Origin: Flavobacteriaceae bacterium S0862 | Lineage (GTDB): Bacteria; Bacteroidota; Bacteroidia; Flavobacteriales; Flavobacteriaceae | NCBI GenBank assembly: GCA_023015825.1 | Contig: JALKAW010000002.1 | Span: 124,001 to 188,000 of the forward strand | Reading direction: 5' to 3' | Length of the DNA stretch: 64,000 nucleotides | Part shown: positions 52,595 to 60,224 of the stretch, one piece after another | Numbering within the stretch: position 1 is the first letter of the stretch | Layout of the letters: every line of letters starts with the position of its first letter | Program-made: the position numbers and the translations under genes | Notes under the pieces: model-generated | Seen by the model: only the letters and a program-made list of their open reading frames with translations | What the model was told of the DNA's origin: nothing | The model's database searches: none

Positions 52595-54211
52595 TTATTC
52601 TTCATTAATTTTTTTTAAAGTAGGATAAGTAATTCCTAACTGTTCCAGATAGGTTTTATACTTTGCCTCATCATAGTAAAACTTTTCCAGCTGACTTCTA
52701 AATTGATTTTGCTTATCCTCATTCAGATAAATAGGTGGTACATCATCGGCTGAAATCATTGGTTGGTATTTAGTTTTTTTGCTTTGCTCATTATTAAAAT
52801 AGTCCCAGGCTTGTTTTACTAAATCTGGCTTCGTTAAAAAGTCAATAATTGTCATTGCCTCTACTTTAGCTCCTGCAGTTACACCTTTATGAGCTATTGG
52901 TGTAGCCATAGCTATGGCATTGCTCCAATGGTGACCTTGTAACCCAGGAATATTAGATGGAAATCTTAAAGTAACCGTAGGGACTTTCCAAGATACGTCA
53001 CCAATATCATCCGATCCTCCACTAACAGGTGTTTTAATTGGAAGCCCTAATTTACTCAGTTCTTTACTTAATCCTTCTTTTCTATTAGAATTAACTTCAG
53101 TTTGCACAGCTATTGCAAGTGTCTGGTCTTTTTCGGACCATTCTGGTAAACCTACAGTTTTTATATTTTCATACATGGTTTCGGCAATGGTTTTATTAAA
53201 ATGTCTAGGCCATGCTGTACCCAAAATTTTTGAACTCATTGTGGTTTTCGTCATAAGTGCAGCGCCTTTTGCTATATCGTTGGCTTCATTGTACATTTCC
53301 ATAATGCCTTCATACGTTACATCTCTAAAATAATACCAAATTGACGCTTTTGATGGTACAACATTTGGTTGATCGCCAGCATCTGTAAATATGGAGTGCG
53401 ATCTTTTTAATGGATGCAAATGTTCGCGTTTATAGTTCCAGCCAACATTCATAAGTTCTGCAGCGTCTAAAGCACTTCTTCCACGCCATGGCGATCCAGC
53501 AGAATGTGCAGCTTCTCCTTCAAAAGTATACTCAACCGAAATTAATCCTGTACCTCTCGCCGCACCATAGGATACTGATAAATTACTACTCACATGTGTA
53601 AAAATGCACATGTCAATATTGTCAAAAAGACCATCTCGCGTGTACCAAGCCTTTGCAGCCACAAGTTCTTCGGCAATTCCTGGCCAAAGTATGAGTGTCC
53701 CTCCAATATTTTCGCGTTCCATAATTTGTTTCACTGCTAGTGCTGCTGTGATATTTAATGGAATCCCTGAATTATGACCTTCGCCATGTCCTGGTGCACC
53801 TTCAATTATTGGTTTATGGTATGCCACTCCAGGATATTGAGAGGCTTTTGGAATACAATCGACATCGCTTCCAAGTGCTATTACAGGTCCTTCGCCATTG
53901 CTCCAAGTGGCAAACCATGCAGTTGGAATTCCAGAAACTGCCTTTTCAATTTCAAAACCATTATCTTTAAGTATGCTTGTTAAATATTTAGACGATTCGA
54001 TTTCCTGAAAGCCTAATTCAGAAAAGCTAAAAACTTTATCAACCATAATTTGAGATTGCTTATGGTTAGATTCTACAATTTGAGCTACTTCAGTTTTAAG
54101 TGCTTCAATTTTTTTCTTAGATAATTTTTTTTGAGAAATTGCAGTAGGAGAAAACCCTAAACATATAATACTCAAAATAAGTACTGTGATTTTTTTGTGG
54201 TTGGTTGACAT
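52595..54211 (-). CDS. Exported M20-family amidohydrolase (AbgB-like)
   Basis: Zinc-type peptidase/amidohydrolase of 538 residues from the ATG at 54211. That start yields a signal peptide (ILSIICLGFSPTAISQ), so the enzyme is probably periplasmic. Metal-binding segments of the M20D/AbgB type are seen: GHGEGHNSG, EELVAAKAW and SGGSDDIGDVSW. AbgB cleaves p-aminobenzoyl-glutamate, and relatives cleave other N-acyl amino acids. It stands alone on the minus strand. Confidence 0.88.
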   Translation of the reverse strand: MSTNHKKITVLILSIICLGFSPTAISQKKLSKKKIEALKTEVAQIVESNHKQSQIMVDKVFSFSELGFQEIESSKYLTSILKDNGFEIEKAVSGIPTAWFATWSNGEGPVIALGSDVDCIPKASQYPGVAYHKPIIEGAPGHGEGHNSGIPLNITAALAVKQIMERENIGGTLILWPGIAEELVAAKAWYTRDGLFDNIDMCIFTHVSSNLSVSYGAARGTGLISVEYTFEGEAAHSAGSPWRGRSALDAAELMNVGWNYKREHLHPLKRSHSIFTDAGDQPNVVPSKASIWYYFRDVTYEGIMEMYNEANDIAKGAALMTKTTMSSKILGTAWPRHFNKTIAETMYENIKTVGLPEWSEKDQTLAIAVQTEVNSNRKEGLSKELSKLGLPIKTPVSGGSDDIGDVSWKVPTVTLRFPSNIPGLQGHHWSNAIAMATPIAHKGVTAGAKVEAMTIIDFLTKPDLVKQAWDYFNNEQSKKTKYQPMISADDVPPIYLNEDKQNQFRSQLEKFYYDEAKYKTYLEQLGITYPTLKKINEE

Positions 54212-54281
54212 TGTTTGGTTGTTTAAATTATTAGTATGATTTATAAAGATAAGAAGAATAACCAAACAATGTTAAAAACAA

Positions 54282-54309
54282 AAAAGTCCAACATTTCTGT
54301 TGGACTTTT
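54282..54309 (-). terminator. Terminator of the DUF2202 gene
   Basis: The 12-bp stem AAAAGTCCAACA with TGTTGGACTTTT surrounds a TTTC loop, which is GAAA (a GNRA tetraloop) on the minus strand. This fits its use by the minus-strand gene ending at 54352. Confidence 0.88.
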
Positions 54310-54351
54310 CAATATTTTCTCTGGCGTAAATAACATTAACCTATAAGTTTT

Positions 54352-54963
54352 CTATATACCACCACATCTTTCTTTATCAGATTCAATTATCTCATTATAC
54401 TCTTCATTAGATATGAACTGTGGACTATAACTAATTGAATTTAAATCTAGTTCTAAAACAAAACTCCTTAAATGATTTCTTGAGCCACACTTTAAACCAC
54501 TATAAACATTTAAAATATCTAGGCTTTGTGTGTTTAATTCAAATTCATCAATATCTTTTATATCTAAATCTTCAATAGTAGCGCCAACTTTTAACGCCTC
54601 AATTATTGATATATCTACTTGTGCTGTTAGTTGATTATAGAGTTGTTGTAAATCTTGATTTGAAAATACTCCTAATGCCTCTATTATTGGATCTTCTAAA
54701 TTGTATTTGTTCAACAAATATAAAACACTATTCATGTGTTGCTGTTCACTTTGTGATATATTATAAAATATTTGCTCATGGTATTTCTCAAAAGCATATA
54801 AATATACATCTCTTGCTAATTTTTCTTCTTCTCTCAAAAAGATAAGATCTTGTTTTTCAAGATTAGATAATTCTAAAGTTATTTCGTTAATTTCATCATT
54901 TTTAGAACAGCTTGTTACTGTTACACTCAATATTGATAAAAAGGCTATTATAATTGTTTTCAT
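54352..54963 (-). CDS. DUF2202 ferritin-like lipoprotein
   Basis: Exported protein of 203 residues with a lipobox-like VTSCSKN at about 16-22. The DUF2202 domain is a predicted ferritin-like four-helix bundle; FLREEEKLARDVYLYAF (about 43-59) and SEQQHMNSVLYLL hold candidate di-metal ligands (E and H). Function is unknown for the family. The gene lies between two near-identical terminator hairpins, about 800 bases apart. Confidence 0.85.
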   Translation of the reverse strand: MKTIIIAFLSILSVTVTSCSKNDEINEITLELSNLEKQDLIFLREEEKLARDVYLYAFEKYHEQIFYNISQSEQQHMNSVLYLLNKYNLEDPIIEALGVFSNQDLQQLYNQLTAQVDISIIEALKVGATIEDLDIKDIDEFELNTQSLDILNVYSGLKCGSRNHLRSFVLELDLNSISYSPQFISNEEYNEIIESDKERCGGI

Positions 54964-55080
54964 GATTAAAAATTTAAATTAAACTATACATGTTAGACTT
55001 TATAAACTAGTATTATGTTTAATAAAAATTTTGTAACAAAAGTTACTTAATTAACAGGCCAATAAAAAAATTAGATAAGA

Positions 55081-55133
55081 TTTAGGATAAAAAAAGTCCA
55101 ACATTTCTGTTAGACTTTTAGTTTTATCCTAAA
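55081..55133 (-). terminator. Extended hairpin downstream of a small membrane gene
   Basis: A 53-base hairpin has a 12-bp outer stem (TTTAGGATAAAA with TTTTATCCTAAA). Its inner stem has one mismatch around a TTTC loop. The inner part nearly repeats the 54282-54309 terminator (one base differs in the arm). It follows the minus-strand gene ending at 55140. Confidence 0.8.
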
Positions 55134-55139
55134 CAAAAT

Positions 55140-55328
55140 TTAAGCGGTTTTCTTTTCAATTGACATTTTAATTAAAATAGCCATGAGAACCCAGATTATC
55201 CAAGTTTCACCATGAGTCATTTCATAATCAGCACCCGCTAAACGAGCTACGGTAAGAATAATGTAAATAATAATTGGTGACAGAATAAGAGACACTAAAA
55301 GATTGATGATGGTTTTTTTGATATCCAT
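55140..55328 (-). CDS. Small two-helix membrane protein
   Basis: Hypothetical protein of 62 residues with two hydrophobic helices (about 7-28 and 44-58) separated by a short acidic loop (ADYEMTHGE). No family is recognised. It has a strong terminator right after its stop, which supports real transcription. It sits among other minus-strand membrane genes in the accessory stretch. Confidence 0.6.
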   Translation of the reverse strand: MDIKKTIINLLVSLILSPIIIYIILTVARLAGADYEMTHGETWIIWVLMAILIKMSIEKKTA

Positions 55329-55408
55329 TGTGTTAAAAATTAGTTAGTTAATTAGCAAAAGGTAATAAATTATTTTTAAATGATAAATATGAAGCTCCGC
55401 ATTATAGT

Positions 55409-55681
55409 TTAACCTAAATTTAAATACACTAAGAATAATGCCACATAAATAAAAATATAAAAACGATAAAAGTTTCGCTGTTTTAAATAATCTATATTAT
55501 TTGGATAAAGATTCCCAAGTAAACCGTTTACTTCCTTAATAAATAAGGGTTTAATATTGATGACCCAACTATCTGTTTGATAAACTATTTTCCGAAACTT
55601 ACTTCGGTAGTAGGTTAAAGGGAGTCCCCAAAACACAAAAAGTATTAACCAAATATTTTCTTTGAAATAGTTAAGCATCAT
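55409..55681 (-). CDS. Small membrane protein coupled to DUF1295
   Basis: Hypothetical protein of 90 residues with hydrophobic segments at both ends (about 10-27 and 72-88) and a basic aromatic middle. Its ATG directly follows the stop of the DUF1295 gene with no gap (TAAATG), so translation is probably coupled. A partner or accessory role to that enzyme is inferred. No domain is recognised. Confidence 0.65.
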   Translation of the reverse strand: MMLNYFKENIWLILFVFWGLPLTYYRSKFRKIVYQTDSWVINIKPLFIKEVNGLLGNLYPNNIDYLKQRNFYRFYIFIYVALFLVYLNLG

Positions 55682-56458
55682 TTATTTTTTTGGAAACCAT
55701 GGAAAAAAAGAATTTGTTTTTTTTATGTACTCTTGATATTCTGGCCTACGATCTGATATGGACTCTTCCAAAAGAGCAACTCCGGAAACCTTTATAATCA
55801 AAAAGGTCATAATAACAGAACCTAATATTGGCCAATATTTTCCTGCGGAAATACAAAATATAGCATAAGACCACCATACCATGGTATCTCCAAAATAATT
55901 AGGGTGCCGTGTATATTTCCAAAATCCTGTGTTTAAAACCTTTACTTTGTTTTTAGGATTCTTTTTGAATTTAGCCAATTGATAATCTCCGCCAGATTCA
56001 AAGATAAAACCTATTAACCATATGGTCATGGCTAAATAATCTAAGCTGGTTAATTGATCGTTTTCTGTGAAATAATGAATCCCTAACAGTGACAAAGAAA
56101 CTATTATAATCAAGACTCCTTGCAGTAAAAACACCTGAAAAAAACTAAACCACCAATAACGATGTGCACCATACCGTTTCCTAAATTCCTGATATCGAAA
56201 ATCTTCCCCTTTACCAGCATTACGAAGTCCTAAATAAATAGACAGTCGTAATCCCCAAATGCTAACTAAAAATAACACTATAATGGATCTTATATAATTA
56301 GCCTCGGATAAATAGAAGTATATTCCATTTACAATTACGAACCCCATACCCCAAAAAATATCAATTATGCTAACATTTTTAATAAAAACACTAATAACCC
56401 ATAGGGCAGTAATACATAGGAGAATAATAAGAGCCCCGATAATTAAAAATGAAAACAT
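55682..56458 (-). CDS. DUF1295 membrane protein, steroid-5-alpha-reductase-like
   Basis: Polytopic membrane protein of 258 residues with about six helices. The C-terminal part has the family motif RHPNYFGD (about 190-197), with a second group near the end (RRPEYQEYIKKT). These are shared by DUF1295, steroid 5-alpha reductases and isoprenylcysteine methyltransferases, which bind NADPH or SAM. Reduction of a lipid or sterol-like double bond is possible but not shown. It forms a two-gene unit with the small protein downstream. Confidence 0.85.
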   Translation of the reverse strand: MFSFLIIGALIILLCITALWVISVFIKNVSIIDIFWGMGFVIVNGIYFYLSEANYIRSIIVLFLVSIWGLRLSIYLGLRNAGKGEDFRYQEFRKRYGAHRYWWFSFFQVFLLQGVLIIIVSLSLLGIHYFTENDQLTSLDYLAMTIWLIGFIFESGGDYQLAKFKKNPKNKVKVLNTGFWKYTRHPNYFGDTMVWWSYAIFCISAGKYWPILGSVIMTFLIIKVSGVALLEESISDRRPEYQEYIKKTNSFFPWFPKK

Positions 56459-56560
56459 TCTGTTGCTTATTTAGTTAAAAGAAAGATAAAAAATTTATAC
56501 AAAGAACGATTATTAGAGTTTATGCATTAAACTTATCCGACCAAATATATTTATTCCCAT

Positions 56561-56626
56561 TAAAAAAACCCTACTATTTCTAGTAAGGTTTTCTCTATTT
56601 TGCTCCCCCTCTTGGACTCGAACCAA
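56561..56626 (-). repeat. tRNA 3'-end fragment with terminator, copy A
   Basis: Bases 56602-56626 match 24 of 25 bases of the 3' end of the intact tRNA-Asn at 58558 (acceptor strand and T arm). The rest of the tRNA is missing. On its downstream side (56561-56601) lies a terminator hairpin that is nearly identical to that in copy B. It looks like an attachment-site remnant or a decayed tRNA. Confidence 0.75.
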
Positions 56627-56669
56627 TTCAATGAGGAATTAATCAGGTTTGCATTACTGAATGATACAT

Positions 56670-57596
56670 TTAATCTATAGCTCCAGATAACCAATGCAAA
56701 AGGTTTAGAACAAATTGAAGGTTTTGATTATTGTTTTGAAAATTAATCCCTACCGGATTTTTATCCTTTCCAACTAGCTGAGCTGAAAACAAACTAGCTT
56801 CACCTATTAATGCCACTCTTCCTTTTCCTCTCTTCATAACTGCAGCCTGAAAAAGTACGTCAGACGGTATAACAGGTGTATTGCTATCCATTTTCCATGC
56901 CTCCTGAGTTTGGTAGGACACCTCATCTTTGTTGTTAAAAGAAAATAATCCAGTTATAGTACTGTCTGTCAATTTAAATCCACTACCATAATAGGTCGCT
57001 ATCCAATTCACTTTTTCATTCTTATTTCGTCCATTTACTAATGGATGTTTAGCTAATGTTCCGTCTCTTTTTGAAAAAGTCGACATCCCCCAATTAACAG
57101 AATCTAGAACAAATCCATTAAACCATTCTACTCCTAAATTAGAAGATAATTTTTTTATAGCTCCCGGAAATGGCATATGGTCCGCTACTAGTAATAAACT
57201 TCCTCCATCTTTTATCCACTGTAATAGTTCACGAATTTCTAAATCATTAAATGCTTCAGGTGTTGGCAATTTCCAATTATCTACATTTGATTTATGTAAA
57301 GCGCTAATAATGACAAGAATATCTGCCTTATTAATTGATGATTTACTTATTGGTTCTTTGAGTTTCTTGACCTGATATCCATCTTCTTTTAAAACCTTAA
57401 TAAGAGGAAACATTCTATTGTCAATAGACATATCATTATTGTGATATTCGTCAATGAAAATAATTGGTCCTTTATTTAAAGAGTAAACCGGATTAGTAAC
57501 ATTATAAATAAATGAGGAATCTATAACTTGCTGAGCATTTAATTGAGTGCTAGAAATAAAAAAAATAATTACGAGAAGACAGGTAATTCTAAACAT
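56670..57596 (-). CDS. Exported DUF4350-like protein
   Basis: Predicted periplasmic protein of 308 residues with a signal peptide ending near LNAQ (residue 21). The fold looks like a class I glutamine-amidotransferase-like/DUF4350 domain. GPIIFIDEYHNN lies at about 44-55, WIKDGGSLLLVADHMPFPGA at about 125-144, and GRVALIGEASLFSAQ near the C terminus. The usual catalytic Cys of amidotransferases is not seen. The gene lies between the two tRNA-fragment repeats, so it may have arrived with a mobile element. Function is unknown. Confidence 0.75.
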   Translation of the reverse strand: MFRITCLLVIIFFISSTQLNAQQVIDSSFIYNVTNPVYSLNKGPIIFIDEYHNNDMSIDNRMFPLIKVLKEDGYQVKKLKEPISKSSINKADILVIISALHKSNVDNWKLPTPEAFNDLEIRELLQWIKDGGSLLLVADHMPFPGAIKKLSSNLGVEWFNGFVLDSVNWGMSTFSKRDGTLAKHPLVNGRNKNEKVNWIATYYGSGFKLTDSTITGLFSFNNKDEVSYQTQEAWKMDSNTPVIPSDVLFQAAVMKRGKGRVALIGEASLFSAQLVGKDKNPVGINFQNNNQNLQFVLNLLHWLSGAID

Positions 57597-57652
57597 ATTG
57601 CATTGGTAACTCTTTTAAAGATACTGAAATTCTAAAAGATAGATTTAAGGCA

Positions 57653-57722
57653 TAAAAAAACCTACTATTTCTAGTAAGGTTTTCTATATTTTGCTCCCCC
57701 TAATATTGTTTTGTCGAACCAT
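57653..57722 (-). repeat. tRNA 3'-end fragment with terminator, copy B
   Basis: Bases 57653-57701 match 56561-56610 at about 48 of 50 positions (one base gap, one substitution), covering the terminator and the acceptor-strand end GCTCCCCCT. The following T-arm region is more decayed, keeping TCGAACC. Together the copies flank the DUF4350-like gene as direct repeats about 1.1 kb apart. Confidence 0.75.
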
Positions 57723-57806
57723 TTTAACGAAGAACTTATGAAAGCTTTTGAGGTAATTGAATTAAGCATTAAGTAATTTCTAATCTGAAGACTATTGTCT
57801 TTATTA

Positions 57807-58328
57807 TTAATTACTTAATCTTACACCAATTTGAAATGTTTCAAGGGTATTTCCTTTATCGAATCCTATTTGAGTCCATGTACCTCCTTCTTTTTTATCT
57901 AAATTTAAAGATGCATAACTAGCTACAATTGTATATCGTTCTCCAATCATAAATCCTATTACAGGTCTGTAATAAAATCCACTACTCCCACCACCAGCAG
58001 AAACTCCACCGTAACCTAAGTCTGCTCCTATAAAAAAATCAGATAAATCATATCTGTTCGCAGCACTTATTGTATATCCAAAAGAATCATCCAAAATAGC
58101 ACCTCCAGATTCTTCCTTTGAGAAAATCCATGAAAGTCCAACTAATGGTCCTAGCGAATATCGAGGTGTAACTTCCCATAAATAGGCGACTTTTGTATTA
58201 ACTTCCAATCCTAATTCATCTTTTAAATCCCCCGTTGTAAAACCTAAATTAAGCTCACTGTCTATGCCTTGCGCTGATGCATAAATGGTGATAAAACCCA
58301 ACAAAATAATGAATACTGTTTTTTTCAT
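57807..58328 (-). CDS. Small outer-membrane beta-barrel protein
   Basis: Exported protein of 173 residues with a signal peptide (MKKTVFIILLGFITIYASAQ). Its alternating Gly- and aromatic-rich strands (such as YRPVIGFMIGERY) end in IGVRLSN, consistent with an eight-stranded OmpA/OmpW-like barrel. No specific function can be given. It lies between tRNA-Asn and tRNA-fragment copy B, with about 230 bases of non-coding DNA upstream in which only the tRNA terminator was noted. Confidence 0.7.
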   Translation of the reverse strand: MKKTVFIILLGFITIYASAQGIDSELNLGFTTGDLKDELGLEVNTKVAYLWEVTPRYSLGPLVGLSWIFSKEESGGAILDDSFGYTISAANRYDLSDFFIGADLGYGGVSAGGGSSGFYYRPVIGFMIGERYTIVASYASLNLDKKEGGTWTQIGFDKGNTLETFQIGVRLSN

Positions 58329-58518
58329 GTTAATTAGTTTAAGCTTACTTATATAATTTCATTTGTATGAGTAAATATTAGTATAAGGTAGGTTGTAAAA
58401 TCTCATACCAAATATATGAAACTAGATTAAAACATGAGAATGGCAAATAAATAGTTAGAAGACGAGAGGTAATAATATGTAAGTTAAGGAATAATAATTA
58501 AAATCAATTTTAAGCATT

Positions 58519-58550
58519 AAAAAACCACTCAAGAATTTGAGTGGTTTTTT
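58519..58550 (-). terminator. Terminator of tRNA-Asn
   Basis: A hairpin with AAAAACCACTCAA and TGAGTGGTTTTT arms lies just after the tRNA 3' end on the minus strand, with a T-run. It differs from the hairpins of the two tRNA fragments. Confidence 0.85.
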
Positions 58551-58558
58551 ATAGGTTG

Positions 58559-58632
58559 CTCCCCTTCTTGGACTCGAACCAAGGACCCTCTGATTAACAG
58601 TCAGATGCTCTAACCAACTGAGCTAAAGAGGA
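58559..58632 (-). tRNA. tRNA-Asn (GTT)
   Basis: The 74-base minus-strand gene folds as a normal tRNA. Acceptor TCCTCTT pairs with AAGGGGA, discriminator G follows, and the D arm is AGCTCAGTTGGTTAGAGC. The anticodon loop CTGTTAA has GTT. The T arm is TTGGTTCGAGTCCAAG. CCA is not encoded. Two partial copies of its 3' end lie downstream. Confidence 0.96.
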
Positions 58633-58705
58633 GTGTTTTTTCCGCTTTTGCGAGCGCAAATATATATTATTTTTTATATACTACAAATATAATATTCAAA
58701 AAACT

Positions 58706-60046
58706 TTAATTAGTAAAAGCCTTGAAAATATCATTCCCATTGGCAAAAAGCACCAAAGCTATTAATATAAAGAATCCTATCATTTGGGCATACTCCATAA
58801 ACTTATCGCTAGGCTTTCTTCCTGACACCATTTCGTATAGCAAAAACATAACGTGACCTCCATCTAGTGCAGGAATTGGAAGTAAGTTTAGCACGCCCAA
58901 CATGATTGATAAAAAGGCTGTAATATTCCAAAAAGACTCCCAGCTCCAATTATCTGGAAATATATCAAAAATAGCTTTAAAACCTCCTACACCTTTATAT
59001 GCTCCTGTACTTGGAGTGAAAATTAGTTTTAACTGCATCCAATATGAACTAATTTGATCTTTAAATCTAGTTAACCCAACTCCTATGCTTTCTCCAAAAT
59101 TATACTCTTTTCTAATAAAATCGTAATAGCCTAACTTTTCAATGTCACTATATGTTCCTCCAGAAATAATTCCTAATCTTCCATTTTCATCAACATTTAA
59201 AGTTCGGGTAATTGTATTTCCATCTCTTAAAAGTTCAGCTTCTACTGTCTTACCATTTAAATCGGTTAACCTATCTTCCAACTGGTCAAAATACTTAAGT
59301 TCTTTTCCATTCAATGACACAAATGTATCGCCTTTCTGTAGGTCTTTATCATTATTTGCTAAAGTATCTACAATCTTACTAATAATAAACGGAGTTCTTA
59401 ACTCGAAAAATCCTCTTTCATTGCTTGAACTTAATCTTCCCAAAAAGTCTTCAGGTAAAGCTATCTTCTTTTCAACACCATTGCGTTCAACAGTAATTAC
59501 TTGAGCTTCTAAAAAATATTTTCTTAAATCTGAATAATTTACAATCTCATTGTCATTAATTGCTTTAACATTATCGCCTGTTTGTAATCCAAAATCTCTA
59601 AGCAACGTATTTTCAACTAAATAACCATCTTTAATACTATTTGCTGCAATATCAGATTCCCCATAGCCATAAGCCATAAAAATATAAACAATTGCTGCCA
59701 AAATAAAGTTAACTGTTACACCACCAAGCATAATAATTAAACGTTGCCAACTTGGTTTAGAACGAAACTCCCAAGGCTTGGGTTCTTCGGCCATTTGCTC
59801 TTTGTCCATGCTCTCATCAATCATTCCAGATATTTTCACATATCCTCCTAGAGGCAACCATCCAATTCCGTAAACTGTTTCGCCTATTTTCTTTTTAAAT
59901 AGTGAATACTTTATATCGAAAAACAAGTAGAATTTTTCTACTCTGGTTTTAAATAATTTTGCTGGTATAAAATGTCCTAATTCGTGTAAAACGATTAGTA
60001 ATGAAAGGCTCAATAAAAATTGAGATATTTTAATAACAAACTCCAT
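58706..60046 (-). CDS. rseP: Site-2 protease RseP
   Basis: Intramembrane zinc metalloprotease of 446 residues that cleaves membrane anchors such as anti-sigma factors and signal-peptide remnants. The zinc motif HELGH is in the first helix (about residues 21-25). Two PDZ-like regions lie at about 125-300 in the periplasm. The second metal site is LLPIPALDGGHV near residue 395, with helices after it. Length matches bacterial RseP. A -7 box is present 29 bases before the start. Confidence 0.95.
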   Translation of the reverse strand: MEFVIKISQFLLSLSLLIVLHELGHFIPAKLFKTRVEKFYLFFDIKYSLFKKKIGETVYGIGWLPLGGYVKISGMIDESMDKEQMAEEPKPWEFRSKPSWQRLIIMLGGVTVNFILAAIVYIFMAYGYGESDIAANSIKDGYLVENTLLRDFGLQTGDNVKAINDNEIVNYSDLRKYFLEAQVITVERNGVEKKIALPEDFLGRLSSSNERGFFELRTPFIISKIVDTLANNDKDLQKGDTFVSLNGKELKYFDQLEDRLTDLNGKTVEAELLRDGNTITRTLNVDENGRLGIISGGTYSDIEKLGYYDFIRKEYNFGESIGVGLTRFKDQISSYWMQLKLIFTPSTGAYKGVGGFKAIFDIFPDNWSWESFWNITAFLSIMLGVLNLLPIPALDGGHVMFLLYEMVSGRKPSDKFMEYAQMIGFFILIALVLFANGNDIFKAFTN

Positions 60047-60074
60047 TTAGTCTTCGTCAAAATTTATAAACGCA

Positions 60075-60082
60075 CAAAAGTA
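60075..60082 (-). promoter_or_regulatory. -7 box of rseP
   Basis: Reads TACTTTTG on the minus strand, an exact TAnnTTTG match, 28 bases before the ATG. Confidence 0.45.
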
Positions 60083-60178
60083 AAACTTTAAAGCTACATT
60101 ATAAAACATAATAGACTATCATTAACGTTTCTTTATCTTTTTGGGTATAAATTAATAGCATTTTTTAGGGTTTGTCCG

Positions 60179-60186
60179 TATTTTTG
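60179..60186 (+). promoter_or_regulatory. -7 box of the SCO-family gene
   Basis: TATTTTTG, an exact match, lies 38 bases before the ATG at 60225. Confidence 0.45.
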
Positions 60187-60224
60187 CACTCAATCTCAAA
60201 TTGATAATCAAAAAGAAGCTCAAA

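Follow-up and report, generated by a model that had tools for sequence, protein, structure and literature searches.

The rseP/tRNA-Asn locus and its repeats

The window, that is, the whole 64-kb stretch of DNA that was analysed, carries an intact tRNA-Asn gene adjoining an rseP-like gene, and it carries, downstream of this tRNA, two incomplete repeats (A and B) of a tRNA 3' end, with one gene in each interval (Table 1). ARAGORN identified this tRNA-Asn as the sole tRNA of the region. Likewise, an Rfam search of positions 54000-60200 returned the tRNA only, since seven further listed matches were below their own gathering scores, and no Rfam family was found at copy A or B. Alignment of the repeat pair (56563-56610 and 57654-57701) upheld what a preliminary description of this DNA had reported, namely a pair of truncated tRNA 3' ends that have a terminator in common, both on the same strand and downstream of tRNA-Asn. 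The copies are 1091 bases apart, as compared to the 1.1 kb given there, and are identical at 46 of 48 positions; the repeat as such therefore stands, and its claimed identity of about 48 of 50 bases is replaced by the measured figure. The start-to-start spacings are 1091 and 865 bases. The reported match of copy A to the 3' end of tRNA-Asn at 24 of 25 bases was found exactly, as was the presence of one gene per interval.

Table 1. Features of the rseP/tRNA-Asn locus in the window.
Feature	Coordinates	Strand	Basis or remark
Terminator after copy A; presumed original tRNA-Asn terminator	56562..56592	-	Same core after intact tRNA-Asn in G005, G094, G116 and G168
Copy A (attR-like): R left half joined, within the T loop, to the tRNA-Asn 3' end	56588..56667	-	Match to tRNA-Asn at 56602-56626; HMM made without this genome
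Unit 2, putative cargo: 308-aa DUF4350/GATase-like protein	56670..57596	-	Weak Pfam matches below cut-off
Terminator after copy B (putative left end of unit 2)	57653..57684	-	46 of 48 bases of the repeat shared with copy A
Copy B: conserved right end R, core TGGTTCGACAAAACAATATTAGGGGGAGC	57681..57759	-	HMM made without this genome; same sequence in other genera
Unit 1, putative cargo: barrel-like protein of 173 aa, secreted or in the outer membrane	57807..58328	-	ORF; no Pfam, NCBIfam or PADLOC family
Terminator of intact tRNA-Asn; taken as the left end of the newest unit	58519..58550	-	Differs from the copy A/B terminators; identity with G002 ends two bases past the tRNA
Intact tRNA-Asn(GTT), putative insertion target	58558..58632	-	ARAGORN; Rfam tRNA, 70 bits
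rseP-like gene for an M50 protease; conserved neighbour on the upstream side of tRNA-Asn	58706..60046	-	Pfam Peptidase_M50; adjoins tRNA-Asn in related loci

If bases are treated as independent, a simple estimate gives 5e-7 chance occurrences of a 24/25 match per genome and 9e-19 of a 46/48 match; chance does not explain the repeats. When 86 bases of copy A were used as a query against the own genome (G000; 3.35 Mb in 38 contigs), copy A, copy B and tRNA-Asn were recovered. The remaining six places matched over 24 bases or fewer, the best of them, on contig C34, being inside a protein gene. No other tRNA was present among these own-genome matches, as judged by inspection of five of the six weaker loci. 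An origin of the fragments from a different, deleted tRNA was not borne out, in that the own-genome matches include no tRNA closer to them than tRNA-Asn.

The two copies differ in their relation to the tRNA. Copy B retains only the blocks GGTTCGA and AGGGGGAGCA (acceptor strand), separated by a spacer five bases longer than that of the tRNA. The earlier reading of copy B as a tRNA remnant needs correction: copy B is better regarded as an element end that is like the tRNA in these two short blocks. Upstream of copy A, only 2 bases match the 5' part of the tRNA, and there is no tRNA 5' half upstream of either copy. The T arm of the intact tRNA-Asn reads CTTGG-TTCGAGT-CCAAG, with inverted half-sites flanking a seven-base loop. 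Its acceptor stem contains a T-G pair (5' TCCTCTT, 3' AAGGGGA); such wobble pairs also recur among relatives and may be a mark of element-borne 3' ends.

The putative cargo genes

The 308-aa protein matches DUF4350 only weakly, at 23.4 bits where the cut-off is 30.4. Within the genus, this protein has no relative in G001, G002, G004 and G005, and one with 22% identity in G003. In the family it was found in 12 of 199 genomes, the best relative beyond this genome having 66% identity (G110). Relatives of the barrel-like protein are distant within the genus (34-35% identity, in three of the five other members); across the family they occur in 72 of the 199 genomes, with identities mostly of 24-37%. 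A PADLOC search for defence genes gave no match. The codon-bias check that had been suggested gave no support for foreign cargo, since codon use is ordinary, and nothing unusual was seen in GC content either. The designation of both genes as cargo is retained.

Variation at the locus among relatives

Comparison of the tRNA-Asn locus in related strains, which had been recommended as a check, revealed differing content. The sister species G002 is identical to the window over 165 bases that include tRNA-Asn and two bases beyond it, and of the next 100 bases 38 agree. The distance from tRNA-Asn to a conserved M20 peptidase gene ranges from 0.9 to 18.1 kb across five genomes of the same genus: 0.9 kb in G005, 3.3 kb in G002, 4.4 kb in this genome, 11.6 kb in G001 and 18.1 kb in G003 (G004, in which the tRNA piece is at a contig end, was left out). 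The identity of rseP to that of the window is 98.9% in G002, 88.8% in G003, 69.5% in G005 and 69.4% in G001. An arrangement fixed in distant genera was not encountered: it recurs in other genera, where it encloses different genes.

All 60 relatives that were searched gave a match, mostly the tRNA itself. The A/B-type terminator directly follows the intact tRNA-Asn in G005, and a terminator pattern search placed it after an intact tRNA-Asn in three genera (the G094, G116 and G168 loci); the pattern was one N short, for which reason the own genome is not included in this count. Because this terminator core directly follows an intact tRNA in these four genomes, copy A appears to be the earlier, native end of tRNA-Asn.

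In our survey of tRNA-Asn loci, intact tRNA-Asn copies in tandem or nearby were found in G007, G008, G012, G026, G038 and G048; the threshold used misses B-type copies, so the survey counts are low, and locus L111, which lacks tRNA-Asn and had been included for its DUF4350 relative, was left out. In L094 (G007) and L104 (G026) the second intact tRNA-Asn lies 9.6 kb and 3.7 kb away, respectively, and the terminator stem is the same at each copy. In L106 (G030), at position 192 from the tRNA-Asn start, and in L096 (G012), at position 271, 3' fragments with terminators were seen; they lie only about 75 to 120 bases past the intact tRNA-Asn, with no intervening gene.

A conserved right-end motif

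The sequence upstream of copy B, with the core TGGTTCGACAAAACAATATTA-GGGGGAGC, recurs in other genera and is here called R. An HMM made from eight R copies outside this genome recognised copy B with an E-value of 7.1e-16 and copy A with 3.2e-9 in a test sequence of 401 kb, and gave no match in the window read backwards. This result supersedes an early comparison of the right ends of A and B (p about 0.004). We scanned 397 genomes of the family with a sequence-only model of ten copies. At E <= 0.01, matches were obtained in 49 of the 397 genomes, most of them weak; at E <= 1e-4, there were 18 matches in 12 genomes belonging to 11 genera. The backwards-read control of the R pattern gave none in 397 genomes. 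Eleven of the 18 matches are downstream of a tRNA-Asn on the same strand (two each in G062, G094 and this genome, and one each in G246, G173, G197, G382 and G003), and rseP adjoins the tRNA in every one of these loci. Among the eight matches that had not been used for the model, five are placed in this way, with a chance of about 4e-11 if two tRNA-Asn genes are assumed per genome and the two matches of G094 are counted separately. For the remaining seven of the 18, the DNA examined shows no tRNA-Asn upstream on the same strand, and one of the seven is located 5 kb after a tRNA-Met. In other genera, R is thus found for the most part behind the same rseP/tRNA-Asn locus. Of the checks proposed earlier, the majority favoured the proposed integration.

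The intervals ending in R hold none to four genes, which are different in each genome, and arrays are present in G062, G246, G094, G173, G197 and G382. When the R-flanked intervals elsewhere were compared to the window genes, the sole relative found was one of the barrel-like protein (32% identity), and this was not within a unit adjoining tRNA-Asn. R was not found in IMG/VR, plasmids or phages. A G110 match of the R pattern falls in an apparent protein-coding gene, and we discounted it as chance. In G183, the loop that holds the R core belongs to an extended stem resembling a terminator (TCTTTAGGACT ... AGTCCTAAAGA; L187, 7268-7351), remote from any tRNA seen in 37 kb.

The complementary strand of R resembles a protein C-terminus (APPNIVLSNHFNEELMKFASFYD), and many of the changes between copies fall on third codon positions. 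This peptide-like pattern was observed in the window (57681-57759 and 56588-56667), in L224 (8305-8346 and 16989-17037) and in L226 (9623-9672), the peptide in L224 comprising about 43 aa and ending in RSLHPTL-stop. Neither a longer gene nor a family was found for it.

Integrases and intact elements at the same tRNA

No integrase match was found in the 64-kb window. The preliminary description had assumed that the integrase was lost and had advised a search for nearby tyrosine integrases; the window holds none, and an intact one is present at this tRNA in G003, a member of the same genus. This stop-free tyrosine integrase gene directly follows tRNA-Asn (C18:117326-118492), its product has the domains Arm-DNA-bind_5, SAM_5 and Phage_integrase, and it is 68% identical to the integrase at the rseP/tRNA-Asn locus of Jejuia sp. 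UBA6058. An R-type junction followed by a terminator is located 11.4 kb downstream in G003; taken alone, this junction is weak (E 4.1e-5 per genome, 0.016 in the 401 kb HMM test). A C-terminal integrase remnant of 38 residues lies between the integrase and this junction, because of which the G003 locus may itself be stacked.

An integrase of the same class, with these three domains, occurs at rseP/tRNA-Asn in Allomuricauda zhangzhouensis as it does in Jejuia, and one of that class lies 1.2 kb from a tRNA-Asn in Aestuariibaculum sp. M13. Judging by the named relatives, the window is taken to belong to the Flavobacteriaceae. Other relatives are located by tRNA-Met, tRNA-Asp or tRNA-Arg, and some have no tRNA in the stretch examined. 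In G010, an N-terminal integrase remnant comes right after tRNA-Asn and is followed by two 3' fragments, past which there is a gene with a start like that of the gene directly after tRNA-Asn in G013. A whole element of the same layout is seen in an IMG/VR contig of 16.8 kb, which carries an intact tRNA-Asn, a terminator and an integrase at one of its ends; the opposite end holds a 3' fragment whose terminator is near-identical. The R HMM gave no match in the Jejuia and IMG/VR elements (L150 and L132), on which account R marks one lineage of right ends and not all of them. The own genome encodes a stop-free integrase of the same family on contig C32 and another with a single stop on C34. Arm-type repeats were not recognisable at the left ends of the G000 units, nor, by the same test, in four of five integrase-bearing left ends.

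By eye, the identity to tRNA-Asn in the virus-like IMG/VR contigs L121, L133, L138 and L139 begins only around the anticodon arm, and a full-length integrase-like ORF is close by in L121, L133 and L139. These four contigs may represent a second crossover class at tRNA-Asn.

Probable serial insertion and alternative explanations

The junctions, the recurrence of R across genera, the G003 integrase at the same tRNA and the variable content within the genus support the earlier proposal that elements integrated repeatedly at a tRNA 3' end and that their integrase was lost. The locus is very probably the result of serial insertion of tyrosine-integrase elements at the 3' end of the rseP-linked tRNA-Asn, the units being now without an integrase. 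The left end of such an element would bear its own tRNA 3' end and terminator, leaving the tRNA intact after insertion, and the right end would in this lineage consist of R. A crossover in the T loop would yield a tRNA with an element-derived 3' end and terminator, and every new insertion would displace the prior 3' end and terminator downstream. At least two stacked insertions would account for the order tRNA-Asn, barrel gene, junction B, DUF4350-like gene, junction A. In that case copy A would be an attR with its left half from the element and its right half, with the terminator, from the older tRNA end, and in copy B the left end of the older unit would come directly after R, the right end of the newer one. 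The likeness of the A and B terminators would follow from this, since a terminator would travel with the left end of the element. The five extra bases of copy B indicate that this junction is not a plain T-loop product. The order of insertion, the crossover position and the idea that the units formerly had an integrase and lost it are inferred.

Several observations do not sit easily with serial insertion: the lack of an integrase match in the window, the ordinary codon use of the cargo, the seven R matches without tRNA-Asn in the DNA examined, the unclean tRNA likeness of copy B, the weak G003 junction, the Jejuia and IMG/VR elements devoid of R, and the peptide-like complement of R, for which this reading has no need. 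The last of these would be accommodated if R were the end of a conserved gene or RNA that resembles a tRNA 3' end by chance, the repeats being segmental duplications. We regard this as extremely unlikely, because apart from the peptide-like pattern and its third-position changes, the peptides have no Pfam or NCBIfam match above cut-off, the one peptide tested had no match on plasmids or phages, the copies share no start codon, and neither copy has an Rfam family; the position after tRNA-Asn and the tRNA fusion of copy A would moreover be left unexplained. It is also very improbable that tRNA-Asn was duplicated in tandem and that the extra copies are dying tRNA genes with native genes between them. 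The six genomes with tandem or nearby intact copies would fit such a course, as would one of the G010 fragments, in which a D-arm-like stretch is fused to the acceptor 3' strand as if by an internal deletion. However, R rather than a tRNA 5' half is found upstream of A and B, the intervening genes vary by genome, and an integrase occupies the same spot in G003.

A variant of serial insertion assumes the same insertions but other units: each unit, consisting of one to four genes plus R, would be a small non-autonomous mobile cassette, likened to those of integrons, that is placed in trans by an integrase encoded elsewhere. The same R ends units in several genera, many of which hold one to four whole genes and no integrase, and same-family integrases are encoded on C32 and C34. 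We nonetheless consider this variant unlikely. We observed none of the units in two states, the arm-type repeats were not recognisable at the unit left ends (which applies equally to most integrase-bearing ones), and the G003 integrase scores 26.8 bits against an integron-integrase cut-off of 265, so that, by the integrase model alone, an integron integrase with attC, as in integron cassette arrays, is not what was found. The more specific notion that the rseP-side tRNA-Asn anchors arrays of small R-ended cassettes of one to few genes, added serially in trans, is unlikely; if true, such arrays would be a tRNA-anchored analogue of the integron, built with phage-type tyrosine integrases.

Returning to serial insertion of integrase elements, the locus illustrates that single genes of unknown function can sit beside a tRNA without an integrase to flag them, and island finders that demand an integrase or a length of at least 2 kb would miss such units. 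R offers a handle for finding scars of this sort. With its help, insertions at this locus were recognised in several genera, and the integrase-less units described here were connected to the integrase-bearing element of a species in the same genus (G003).

Comparison with known systems

A literature search for the rseP/tRNA-Asn locus or R found no description, most subscription papers being outside its coverage. In kind, the locus belongs with stacked tRNA islands or with remnants similar to cis-mobilizable elements (CIMEs). Its more unusual features are that the units, about 1 kb in length, hold a single gene each and that R occurs in 11 genera. Of the organisms compared below, Riemerella anatipestifer belongs to the same bacterial order as the genome studied, and Methylopumilus to another phylum.

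According to the cited parts of PMC5704250, CIMEs are decayed elements without integration or transfer genes that keep attL and attR and become stacked in tandem at the end of a target gene by later site-specific insertions. The units described here resemble such accretions in lacking integration and transfer genes, each having a single ORF and no integrase. Their junctions, as putative att sites, are recognisable by sequence. They differ in that there is one gene per unit and the source is not shown to be conjugative, and any mobilization together with a neighbouring element would be hypothetical. The ssrA islands of Dehalococcoides (PMC3146451, cited parts) are similar in that direct repeats of a 3' end follow an RNA gene in series, in their insertion in the T loop, as is proposed here, and in a conserved motif just upstream of every repeat, which is comparable to R; 15 of these islands lack an integration module. 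They involve a serine recombinase and tmRNA, whereas a tyrosine integrase and tRNA-Asn are concerned here. In the 10K island at tRNA-Arg of Riemerella anatipestifer, for which integration and excision were demonstrated experimentally, the tyrosine integrase adjoins the tRNA as in G003, and the 53-bp direct repeat as printed ends, by eye, in a terminator-like hairpin reminiscent of copies A and B; this is, however, a single intact island of 10 kb at a different tRNA (PMC6764341, cited parts).

The islands defined by Islander (PMC4383910, cited parts) consist of an intact tDNA and a displaced fragment in the same orientation, with 'T loop/junction' as one crossover class. An intact tDNA with a downstream 3' fragment in the same orientation is also what we found in the window, and the integrase that Islander demands within the interval is present at the same tRNA in G003, though not in the window. 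The spacings of 1091 and 865 bases fall short of its length range of 2 to 200 kb, and units like these are therefore filtered out. Finally, the additive island of Methylopumilus (PMC10872708, cited parts) is located at tRNA-Lys instead of tRNA-Asn, and its recurring 20-bp tRNA-Lys 3' ends mark serial additions, just as the tRNA ends do here.
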